Positions 11,337 to 33,490 of a stretch of DNA of 64,000 nt are shown here, piece after piece; within the stretch, counting starts at the first letter, position 1, and each line of letters begins with the position of its first letter. The notes beneath the pieces were generated by a model, which was not told the DNA's origin, did not search any database, and was given only the letters and a program-made list of their open reading frames with translations. Source of the stretch: Chloroflexi bacterium ADurb.Bin180. GTDB taxonomy: Bacteria > Chloroflexota > Anaerolineae > UBA2200. The stretch spans positions 1 to 64,000 of the forward strand of contig MWCV01000010.1 of NCBI GenBank assembly GCA_002070215.1. The letters run 5' to 3'. The position numbers were made by a program, and so were the translations under genes.

Positions 11337-12509
11337 ATGAAGCGACACTGCGGCAAATGGATGCTTCTAGTTACCCTGCTCGTCGCCCTGCTGGCAATGG
11401 GAGGCTGCGGTTCTGGTTCGAATCAGGACCTGCCGCCAACGCGCACGCCAAAACCAACCTTCACCACCATCCCTGCTACGCCCATTGTTGTGGACACACC
11501 CACACCTCTGTGGACAGCAACCCCGCTCCCGACGGCCACTCCGACAGCTACGCCCAGTCCTATCCCGACGGCCACGCCCAACCCGTACCTGAACCCGTTG
11601 ACCGGGGAGATGGTCGCGGACCCCGCCGTACTGCAGCGTCGGCCGTTGCTGGTGCGAATTGGCAATGACTATGAGGTGCGGCCTCAATCGGGCCTCTCTC
11701 TGGCCGATATGGTCTGGGAGGAGGCGATGGACGGGTGGACGATTACCCGGCTGACCGCCGTCGTGTGGAGCCGCGACCCCGAAGTGCTCAAACCCATCCG
11801 CAGCGCGCGCCTTTTTACCATTGACCTCGGCTACATGCTCGACGGGGCACTGGTGCACTCTGGCGCCAATGACCAGGTGCGCTGGCTGTTGTCTCAATCG
11901 ACGCTGGTGGATCTGGACGAGTACTTCCACTCCGCGCCCTATTCGTGGCTCAAGCCAGAAGGCAAGTGGATTGACTATCCCTGGATGGGCCGGGTGGCCA
12001 CGAGCGCCAAAAAAGTGCGTGACTACCTGAAGAAGATCGGCAAAGAGAAGGCGGTGCAACTGCCCGGGTTTGTCTTCTCGGAGCAGGTCCCCGCAGGCGA
12101 TGCTGCCACCTACGTGGAGATACCCTACCCCAAGCGGGCGCTGGTGGAGTATCGCTACGACGCCGCCACGCACCACTACAAGCGTTGGGCAAGGGGTGAG
12201 CCGCACACGGATGCCGTGACCGGTGAGCAGCTTGCCGCCGCCAACGTGATCGTGGTCTATGCCACATACCAGGAGACCAGTGTGAAGGATGTGAACGGGC
12301 AGCCGACGTTCAACATCGTGTCGACTGGCGAGGGGAGGGCCCAGATCATTCGCGACGGTGTGGTTGTGGAAGGCAAGTGGATCAGGCCGACCCGCGAGGC
12401 GTTCCTGCAGCTCGTGCGCCTGGATGGCTCACCCATACCGCTGCGCGTGGGGCAAAGCTGGGTGGAGGTCGTGCCTCCCGACTACCACGTGACCTTCAAA
12501 GTGGAATAG
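11337..12509 (+). CDS. DUF3048 (YerB-like) lipoprotein
   Basis: A 390-residue lipoprotein. The signal peptide LLVTLLVALLAMGGCGSG has a lipobox with the modified Cys near residue 24. A Pro-Thr-rich spacer (about 34-82) holds the domain off the membrane. The rest matches the DUF3048 family of B. subtilis YerB: NPLTGEMV, RPLLVRIGNDYEVRPQSGL, KPIRSARLF and a C-terminal half with GKWIRPTREAFLQL. The function of the family is not established. AGGGAGG upstream supports the ATG. A strong terminator follows directly. Confidence 0.88.
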   Translation: MKRHCGKWMLLVTLLVALLAMGGCGSGSNQDLPPTRTPKPTFTTIPATPIVVDTPTPLWTATPLPTATPTATPSPIPTATPNPYLNPLTGEMVADPAVLQRRPLLVRIGNDYEVRPQSGLSLADMVWEEAMDGWTITRLTAVVWSRDPEVLKPIRSARLFTIDLGYMLDGALVHSGANDQVRWLLSQSTLVDLDEYFHSAPYSWLKPEGKWIDYPWMGRVATSAKKVRDYLKKIGKEKAVQLPGFVFSEQVPAGDAATYVEIPYPKRALVEYRYDAATHHYKRWARGEPHTDAVTGEQLAAANVIVVYATYQETSVKDVNGQPTFNIVSTGEGRAQIIRDGVVVEGKWIRPTREAFLQLVRLDGSPIPLRVGQSWVEVVPPDYHVTFKVE

Positions 12510-12567: not shown

Positions 12568-14433
12568 CTAGCGCCAGATGTTTGGAATGACCGAACCGTC
12601 CAGGCCGACAGGGATGCGAACATCGAGTGCCTGACAGATGGTCGGGCCGATGTCCAGCAAGGAGACTGGCACCGATACGGAACCGCTGGCCAGCCTACCG
12701 CCTGCAGCTACCAGGATGCCGCGCATTTCTGGAATCGAGCTGGCATAGCCCTGGGCAGCAAAGACCGCGGACGGCGCCTCCACCTGCTTGACGCCCAGCC
12801 CATCGGACAATACGTAACCTGGCGCAGCTTGCGCCACGACGTCACCGGCATCGGCAGTACCAAGGTCGAATGGGGACAGATCTTCCCGTTTGGCAACCCG
12901 CGCGAAAAACGGTTGATTCGCCTCATCCCTGACTGCGCTGAGTGCGGCCATCACCTGTTCCTGGACCTTGGCATAGCTGTCGGGCGCGACGATCCCGGAT
13001 TCCTCTCTCCCCTGCAGGTTGATGTACACGTGTGCCAATCCCTCGTTTGTGGCTGCCCAGGCCTTGGTCTTGGCGAGGTCAAGGGAAGGAACACCGCCCG
13101 TCTTGACTGACTGCAGTTTGGCACCGGCCAGGATGGTGTTGACGTTCACCGTAGTGTGGGCCGGCAGGTACCCATTGGGCGACACCACAAACACGCTCGA
13201 ATTGACCAGGCTCACCTGATTGAGGAGATCACCCAGTGCATCGTCCAGAGTGATGTGCGCTCGTTTGAGGTAGCCGGCAAAGGCCTCGGCCCGCTCTGGC
13301 CCGTATCCCGTCTGGCGACCATCGACCAACAGGAATGCCCGTGCGCAATCGGCGATGAGACCCCTTGAGGTGAGCAACAGCTCGGGCGCGTACTTGGAGT
13401 AGACGTAGAGGGTCACCTCGTCCACCCAGCGCTCCCGGTCAAGAGCCATGGCCAGGTATTGCTCAGGGTTGATCCAGCCGGCGTTCAGTGCCGCAAGGTC
13501 CGGTGGCGGTGGCGGAGCGCCGAATTCTCGGTTGACGTCCCGCAGCAGTTGATCGGGACGAGCCTGGCTGTAGACGGACTGGCTCGTGTACAGGGTGATG
13601 GTGAGGCCGGTCGAACTCGAAAACAGGAGCCGCAGTGAGCTGTGCAATCTCGGGCTAGTGGGTACGGTCGTCCACTGGCCGAGGTTGACTCTGACCGACC
13701 CGTTGTCGGGGTCAGCGTCATCGTCCAGGACTAGCTGGTCATAGCTGGTCTGGCCGTCGTCCGTGGTGTCGAGGGCCAGCACTCGCAAGGTCAGAGCAGG
13801 ATTGCCCGCGGAGCTGTGGAGAGTCAGGGCCGCCTGACGCGGCGGGCTAAAGGTCGGAGGACTGCCCTGCCACTCGACTGTGTCAGACAAGACGAGGCTG
13901 TGCACGGCGCCGGGGATGCCACTCTCTCGCGTAGCGATCACGAGGTCGGCATACTGAGCCGGGTTGTCGAGGGTAGCGGCAGGCCAGAAGAGAGCTGCCG
14001 TCAGCAGGCCACTGCGCATTGCAGTGCGCCAGACTGGCTCTGTATGGCTGTCTGCTTCAGGGCGCCCAAGCTCCACCGGCGGGGTCACTGGTGAGTCCAG
14101 ACCGTTCTTCAACGGGTACTTGCCCGTGCTGAGCATGAAGAAGCTCGCGCTGGCGAGCGACGGTTCGGCGGGCGATAGGTACTGTGCAGCAAAGCCTCGC
14201 TTGGCCAGGGCAGCCAGGTTCGGCAAGAGTCCATCCGCCTGGTATTGGCTTATCCAGTCGGCACGAGCGCCCTGCCAGGCAACTACCACGGCCCGCGGCT
14301 TGGGCTGCGGAGCGGGGCTGGCAGTTGGGCTCGCGCCCGGGGTAGGGCCCGGGGTGCTCCGGCAGGAGCTGACCAGGGCCAGTACAGCAACGATCAAACC
14401 AAGATGCGATGCCCGGGAATGTCTTGGACGCAT
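12568..14433 (-). CDS. Phosphodiesterase-fold lipoprotein lacking catalytic residues
   Basis: A 621-residue lipoprotein (lipobox LALVSSC, Cys near residue 24, then a Pro/Ala/Ser spacer) with the type I phosphodiesterase / nucleotide pyrophosphatase fold. The fold is clear at VVVAWQGARADW, TGKYPLKNGL, VYINLQGREESGIV and AAQGYASSIPEMRGI. The residues that define the enzyme are altered. The metal Asp of the IDG motif is Gln, the nucleophile Thr of the TFPNH motif is Ala, SDHG is SPNG, and the His of GTHGY is Gln. I conclude it is probably a non-catalytic binding protein. It lies seven bases after the solute-binding protein gene, in the same transcript. Confidence 0.8.
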   Translation of the reverse strand: MRPRHSRASHLGLIVAVLALVSSCRSTPGPTPGASPTASPAPQPKPRAVVVAWQGARADWISQYQADGLLPNLAALAKRGFAAQYLSPAEPSLASASFFMLSTGKYPLKNGLDSPVTPPVELGRPEADSHTEPVWRTAMRSGLLTAALFWPAATLDNPAQYADLVIATRESGIPGAVHSLVLSDTVEWQGSPPTFSPPRQAALTLHSSAGNPALTLRVLALDTTDDGQTSYDQLVLDDDADPDNGSVRVNLGQWTTVPTSPRLHSSLRLLFSSSTGLTITLYTSQSVYSQARPDQLLRDVNREFGAPPPPPDLAALNAGWINPEQYLAMALDRERWVDEVTLYVYSKYAPELLLTSRGLIADCARAFLLVDGRQTGYGPERAEAFAGYLKRAHITLDDALGDLLNQVSLVNSSVFVVSPNGYLPAHTTVNVNTILAGAKLQSVKTGGVPSLDLAKTKAWAATNEGLAHVYINLQGREESGIVAPDSYAKVQEQVMAALSAVRDEANQPFFARVAKREDLSPFDLGTADAGDVVAQAAPGYVLSDGLGVKQVEAPSAVFAAQGYASSIPEMRGILVAAGGRLASGSVSVPVSLLDIGPTICQALDVRIPVGLDGSVIPNIWR

Positions 14434-16183: not shown

Positions 16184-16191
16184 TGCTTATC

Positions 16192-16445
16192 GGCGATGAT
16201 CAGGACGAGTAGCTGATCAGAGGCGTCACAGGAAGAACGGGCCGTAGCCTGAGAGCCCTTTCGGCGCCAACCAGCGAAAACCCCCTGCTAGCCGGCTTCG
16301 GAAAGGCGCTCCGCGCCGAGTATGGAGCCCCGGAGGCACCCGTTATCGGCCCTAGTGAGTGGTTGCCCGGCCAAGTCTCGCGGGCAGCCGAGTTGGGTGG
16401 AACCGCGTGAGTCAACCTCTCGCCCCATGGGCGAGAGGTTTTTTT
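16192..16445 (+). promoter_or_regulatory. T-box riboswitch controlling thrS
   Basis: A T-box leader senses uncharged tRNA. The start of stem I is typical (GATGATCAGGACGAGTAG from 16195), and its base pairs with 16342-16351. The T-box core GGTGGAACCGCG lies at 16396-16407; its variable base A would pair with a U discriminator of the tRNA, which fits many tRNA-Thr. A terminator hairpin (16414-16425 with 16429-16440) ends in seven T at 16439-16445. The competing antiterminator pairs 16390-16395 with 16413-16419. A possible threonine specifier ACC sits at 16338-16340 beside the stem I base; that assignment is tentative because the next base is C rather than the usual purine. Confidence 0.9.
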
Positions 16446-33248: not shown

Positions 33249-33285
33249 GCTCGCCGTTCGCCAACTGAATAGCTGACAGTTCAAT

Positions 33286-33490
33286 CTCATCTAGAGGGGT
33301 GTAGGGACCGGCCCGTTGAGACCCCGGCAACCTAGGCGCTGTGCGCCAGTAGCGAAGCGCAGCAGCGACTCATGGTGCCAATTCCGGCAGCTCCTGTTCG
33401 CAGTAAGGAGTCTGAAAGATGAGAGGGAAGCGCGCCTTCTCTCCCATCGCCTGCGGCGGAACGCAGGAGTAGCATCGGGAGAGATTTTTT
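33286..33490 (+). promoter_or_regulatory. SAM-I riboswitch (S-box) with terminator
   Basis: The aptamer runs from 33286 to 33423. P1 is closed by CTCATCT (33286-33292) and AGATGAG (33417-33423). The conserved core AGAGGGGTGTAGGGACCGGC and the GACCCCGGCAACC segment are plainly those of SAM-I. A terminator pairs 33438-33445 with 33477-33484 and ends in six T (33485-33490). Without SAM, the 3' strand of P1 plus flank (33418-33429) can pair with 33437-33448 (11 of 12 positions, one G-U), destroying the terminator. This should switch the operon off when SAM is plentiful. Confidence 0.95.

Follow-up and report, generated by a model that had tools for sequence, protein, structure and literature searches.

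Does an extracytoplasmic protein that has kept the fold of a phosphodiesterase and lost its catalytic residues still serve a function, and through which of its surfaces? This question is raised by a lipoprotein gene of Chloroflexi bacterium ADurb.Bin180, located in the 64,000 nucleotides of contig MWCV01000010.1 analysed here (hereafter the window). An initial annotation, comparing the translation by eye with NPP-type enzymes, had described a fold stripped of almost all its metal ligands and suggested a pseudoenzyme selected for binding, perhaps of a nucleotide or phosphodiester, outside the cell. As detailed below, the protein (hereafter the query) is a real pseudoenzyme, and its family preserves a well-documented series of catalytic loss. 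Coordinates of the locus, including the phosphodiesterase-like (PDE) gene and the solute-binding protein (SBP) gene that accompanies it, are collected in Table 1.

Table 1 Features of the SBP–PDE locus, in window positions
Feature	Position	Strand	Basis or remark
NPP/alkaline-phosphatase-fold lipoprotein gene, catalytically dead (0/7 metal/nucleophile residues)	12568..14433	-	621 aa, ATG start
Signal peptide with lipobox (LVSSC, Cys24)	14362..14433	-	Read from translation
Q54, replacing the first metal Asp (IDG/LDG motif)	14272..14274	-	Homologue alignment, Xac NPP profile
A94, position of the Thr nucleophile	14152..14154	-	Homologue alignment, Xac NPP profile
P115, position of the phosphate-binding Asn	14089..14091	-	Asn in 5/5 intact-clade members
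Inserted all-beta domain, residues 199-293, acidic cluster D222/D225/D226/D232	13555..13839	-	Model and alignment
A361, replacing the second metal Asp (VDExGH motif)	13351..13353	-	Homologue alignment
R365, replacing the VDExGH metal His	13339..13341	-	Homologue alignment
P419-N420, replacing the metal Asp-His pair in SDHG	13174..13179	-	Homologue alignment, Xac NPP profile
Q561, replacing the last metal His (GQHGY)	12751..12753	-	Homologue alignment, Xac NPP profile
Solute-binding lipoprotein gene (PF13416/PF01547; weakly UgpB-like), 455 aa	14441..15808	-	Pfam, sequence matches
Promoter-like site TTGGCC-17-TATAAT, ending 9 nt ahead of the SBP start codon	15817..15845	-	Consensus match only

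The proposed NPP-type fold was borne out. PF01663 (Type I phosphodiesterase/nucleotide pyrophosphatase) was the sole Pfam match of the query, at 81.8 bits (E = 9.5e-23) and thus far above the curated cut-off of 23 bits. An AlphaFold model computed from the query and 23 homologues had a mean pLDDT of 86.7 and a pTM of 0.85. When this model was searched with Foldseek, the top PDB matches were all NPPs, including human ENPPs; it superposed best on the Xanthomonas NPP (E about 1e-17, TM about 0.7 when normalised on the smaller target). A viral structure library returned only weak matches of the sulfatase/alkaline-phosphatase fold. Apart from the signal peptide, the translation shows no hydrophobic segment.

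In NPPs, a di-zinc site is formed by the strictly conserved residues D, T (the nucleophile), D, H, D, H and H, represented in NPP3 by D168, T206, D326, H330, D373, H374 and H483, and an Asn holds the zinc-coordinated phosphate (PMC6052110). We placed the seven columns by aligning the query with intact homologues and by profile alignment to the Xanthomonas (Xac) NPP (2gsn/7mw8). None of the seven residues is kept (D54Q, T94A, D361A, H365R, D419P, H420N and H561Q in the alignment), and the phosphate-binding Asn is replaced as well, by Pro115. Four substitutions called by eye were correct in both the homologue alignment and the Xac NPP profile: Gln for the metal Asp of IDG (Gln54), Ala for the nucleophile Thr (Ala94), SPNG for SDHG (S-P419-N420-G), and Gln for the last metal His of GxHGY (Gln561). 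The metal Asp thought to survive in VDGRQTGYGP (D371) was a misalignment, intact homologues reading VDERQ or VDKRQ there, and the supposed replacement of its partner His by Thr was equally mistaken. The true metal pair lies ten residues upstream, where intact members carry PVDECGH or PVDEAGH and the query reads LIADCAR, with Ala361 in place of Asp and Arg365 in place of His. The claim that almost all ligands are lost was therefore right about the loss and too cautious about its extent. Judged by its missing residues, the query is predicted not to hydrolyse phosphodiesters or pyrophosphates.

When did this loss occur, and how often? A scan of genome contigs with the single query protein found no loci; a scan with a five-member alignment recovered 15, of which 11 were close relatives in Chloroflexota MAGs. 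Across other genomes of the class, the family shows graded preservation of the site. All seven residues are present in five members (G003b, G029, G080, G132 and G386), which share 33–38% identity with the query. Partial sites are found in G094 (6/7), G067 and G034 (4/7 each) and G006 (3/7), and two residues remain in G002, G003a, G018 (with its first site masked) and G053. One is left in G005 and in the query's sister G001, and none in G004, as in the query itself. A far branch (G070, G038, G096 and G115), as well as G017, G135 and G405, retains 0–1 of seven. The five nearest relatives of the query keep 0–2 of seven each, in differing combinations. Genome G003, which belongs to the query's family, carries both an intact paralogue and a degenerate copy. 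In the query genome, the only other PF01663 match, at C5, was rejected as an intact paralogue, being an unrelated membrane-type protein.

In a tree built from the alignment minus the seven active-site columns, the query and its five nearest relatives formed a clade (support 100/99) with no intact site within it, and the five intact members formed another (98/95), nested among degenerate lines. A single clade of all degenerate members was rejected (p-AU 1.9e-10, or 0.0018 with the 6/7 member added). A constraint that united only part of this set (the six query-clade members with G006, G018, G053, G067 and G034, 11 degenerate members in all, plus the 6/7 member G094) was not rejected (p-AU 0.21). 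Multiple loss is thus established for the whole degenerate set, and not inside this subset. Intact homologues aligned at the substituted positions, which the initial annotation had regarded as fatal to its claim, do exist, but all five fall outside the query clade and sit in a different gene context. Given this placement and their greater distance from the query, they place the loss in time and do not overturn it.

We then considered whether the emptied pocket might have been put to a new use. If it had been re-tooled for metal-free binding of a nucleotide or phosphodiester, in the manner of a sensor, as the initial annotation envisaged, it should have gained new conservation. The opposite was observed. 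In the six-member query clade, mean pair identity was 0.30 at the seven sites versus 0.67 at the remaining 136 columns that do not vary among intact members (permutation P = 0.0015; P = 0.0002 for all degenerate members), and the neighbouring active-site columns 95-97, 422-424 and 558-561 had decayed too. Position 94 reads A/S/P/Q/A/K across the clade, position 420 N/N/H/Y/H/E and position 561 Q/E/V/T/G/G. Checked for conservation, the substituted residues thus proved variable, A361 being the only one of the seven to show a fixed switch; outside the seven, A364 next to it and six further columns elsewhere were fixed likewise. Such a pattern fits a pocket that has fallen out of use and is under relaxed constraint, and speaks against a newly conserved ligand site in it. 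A re-tooled pocket would agree with the retained fold, and has a precedent in the same superfamily in YejM/PbgA/LapC, an LPS-sensing pseudo-hydrolase scaffold (PMC13125744). With its positions varying among the closest relatives and the phosphate-binding Asn gone, we regard ligand binding in the old site as unsupported and the re-tooled pocket as decidedly unlikely.

Conservation is found instead in the inserted all-beta domain, described as a beta-sandwich and modelled with a pLDDT of 86.9. Its acidic residues D222, D225, D226 and D232 are each kept in 21–22 of 22 members, active or dead. When pair identity in the dead clade was set against that in the intact clade, the insertion stood at +0.15 and the rest of the protein at -0.02, a difference of 0.17, and about 1% of circular shifts were as extreme. 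Searched by itself against the PDB with Foldseek, the insertion had no significant match (best E 0.2). Could the acidic cluster, together with the conserved H426, mean that the protein has remained an enzyme, relying on another metal site or on no metal? Pseudoenzymes with migrated catalytic residues do exist (PMC10211241). However, no set of residues that could stand in for the lost site was seen, and H426, D397, Q374 and D222/D226/D232 are equally conserved where the standard site is intact, and so are not replacements. Continued catalysis by such a route is in our estimate highly improbable.

Degenerate relatives of the query remain under purifying selection after the loss. Since the query's nearest relative is only 55% identical to it, dN/dS was estimated among degenerate relatives, giving 0.25, 0.18, 0.12 and 0.16 in four pairs. 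In two pairs, the paired SBP gene evolved under similar constraint (0.22 versus 0.25 for the PDE gene, and 0.12 versus 0.12). These values bear on the view that the protein is a non-functional relic, heading for loss with selection gone. Such a view could draw on the seven catalytic columns, which decay faster than the other columns invariant in intact members, and on the faster evolution of the PDE gene relative to a neighbouring M19 peptidase gene in the same genome pair (dN/dS 0.12 versus 0.04), which marks the PDE gene as the less constrained of the two. Yet the frame is open and free of internal stops in every relative in the query's clade, and dN/dS of 0.12–0.25 largely refutes this reading. 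Neither the conserved fold columns and insertion, the confident and compact model and the retained SBP pairing, nor persistence in six species at 37–70% identity would be expected of a relic, and we consider this explanation very unlikely. The complete loss of the site, the model with its NPP matches and the dN/dS of degenerate relatives together support the original proposal of a selected, fold-preserving pseudoenzyme outside the cytoplasm.

Gene context offers a further line of evidence. The SBP gene lies directly upstream of the PDE gene in the same operon, with a gap of 7 bp. The promoter-like site ahead of the SBP gene, if real, would imply a leaderless mRNA. No permease or ATPase genes adjoining the query's SBP gene were found. 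The pair occurs in the same order in G001, G002, G005, G003a, G004 and others, and in eight genomes (G006, G067, G034, G018, G053, G070, G096 and G038) a PF00459 (inositol-monophosphatase-family) gene stands between the two. Overall, in most degenerate loci with flanks, an SBP gene adjoins the PDE gene or is one gene off. Among openly available papers, we found none describing this pair.

The surroundings of intact members are different. In G003b, G029 and G386, an SBP gene and two MalF/MalG-type permease genes lie alongside, and in G132 a MalF-type gene is nearby, divergently oriented. Among loci with usable flanks, permeases of this set accompanied 4/4 intact versus 0/14 degenerate genes (Fisher P = 0.0003, the loci being phylogenetically non-independent). 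Degenerate G034 does have permeases about 6 kb off, but they belong to another, divergently oriented operon that carries an SBP gene of its own.

Several other observations were made in and around these loci. In G003 (L069:8091-15751), two permease genes precede a gene for a 1019-aa fusion of a phosphonate-binding-type domain with an SBP_bac_8 domain, followed by the intact PDE gene G003b, possibly an organophosphorus uptake operon. In G386 (L083:10524-11402), a gene resembling DHH-family phosphoesterases (a weak Pfam match, below cut-off) lies between the intact PDE gene and the permeases. A DUF3048 (YerB-like) lipoprotein gene (window 11337-12509, +) adjoins the PDE gene in seven genomes, including G132 with its intact PDE. 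Also in the window, a T-box leader upstream of thrS (16187-16430, +; 79.1 bits, E 1.3e-17, below the Rfam gathering score of 93) is accompanied by a terminator at 16414-16440, and a SAM riboswitch (S box) was detected at 33284-33425 (+; 71.9 bits).

Alternatively, the SBP might use permeases encoded elsewhere, with the dead PDE doing something unrelated in the envelope, such as binding lipids or polysaccharides, and the two proteins not partners at all. In line with this, the query genome has 20 BPD_transp_1 matches, none of them beside the SBP–PDE operon, and no SBP match was found near the dead PDE genes of G017, G405 and G135, two of which are cut on one side by a contig end. A 1083-aa SBP encoded with permeases at C6 was dismissed as this system's transporter, its SBP being only 24% identical and no PDE gene occurring there. 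The close spacing in the query and the pairing kept family-wide, by active and dead members alike, speak against independent roles, and we see this arrangement as unlikely.

The explanation we favour, with a probability of roughly one half, is that selection has kept this pseudoenzyme for its association with the co-expressed SBP outside the cytoplasm, where it would act as a binding or scaffold protein through surfaces other than the old pocket; a ligand and the partnership itself are what we infer here. The lipoprotein would then probably work by binding rather than cutting. The ancestor may have been an ecto-phosphodiesterase: it would have cleaved an extracellular phosphodiester and handed the product on to the SBP of an ABC importer, a coupling suggested by the intact homologues that still have an SBP gene and both permease genes next to them. 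In the query lineage, catalysis and the neighbouring permeases would both have been lost, and the SBP–PDE pair would have stayed. The dead protein would remain anchored on the membrane's outer face and partner the SBP there, in binding or as a scaffold, its working surface most likely the all-beta insertion with the acidic cluster. Together, the two proteins might serve to capture, retain or sense a ligand, or might rely on a permease whose gene lies at another locus. A broader and more tentative scenario, which we consider unlikely, is a recurrent conversion in Chloroflexota of an importer-coupled ecto-phosphodiesterase into a pair of dead enzyme and orphan SBP, in which the dead PDE would serve as a dedicated extracellular SBP co-receptor via its insertion and the pair as a transport-independent sensing or capture module.

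Pseudoenzymes are already well known. What is unusual here is a single family in which the stages from 7/7 to 0/7 are represented, reached more than once, with gene context shifting in parallel. Its living intermediates, together with one genome's intact and degenerate paralogues, provide a test bed for the fate of enzymes after catalysis ends. In practical terms, annotating a PF01663 match as a phosphodiesterase is probably wrong for one entire branch of Anaerolineae proteins.

Compared with known systems, the query shares fold, motif order and Pfam match with the NPP family (Xanthomonas NPP 2gsn and 7mw8, human ENPP1-7, PF01663). It differs from that family in having lost all seven zinc and nucleophile residues and the phosphate-binding Asn, and in being a lipoprotein with an extra all-beta insertion of ~95 residues and a co-encoded SBP. 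The upstream SBP resembles UgpB/maltose-type binding proteins in its Pfam families (PF13416/PF01547) and matches UgpB at E 4e-8, and Thermus-type sugar-binding proteins better (E 2e-18). However, it scores 31.7 bits against a UgpB equivalog cut-off of 411 and is not flanked by permease or ATPase genes. The combination of inner-membrane helices and a periplasmic domain, a lipid A motif and a LapB partner that marks YejM/PbgA-type proteins is not found in the query; YejM/PbgA/LapC is an integral membrane regulator of gamma-proteobacteria from the sulfatase/LtaS-like branch, without an SBP partner. The likeness is thus an analogy of principle only: in both cases, an extracytoplasmic fold of the alkaline-phosphatase superfamily has been kept without its catalytic residues, and in YejM/PbgA/LapC it serves as a scaffold for binding and sensing (PMC13125744).
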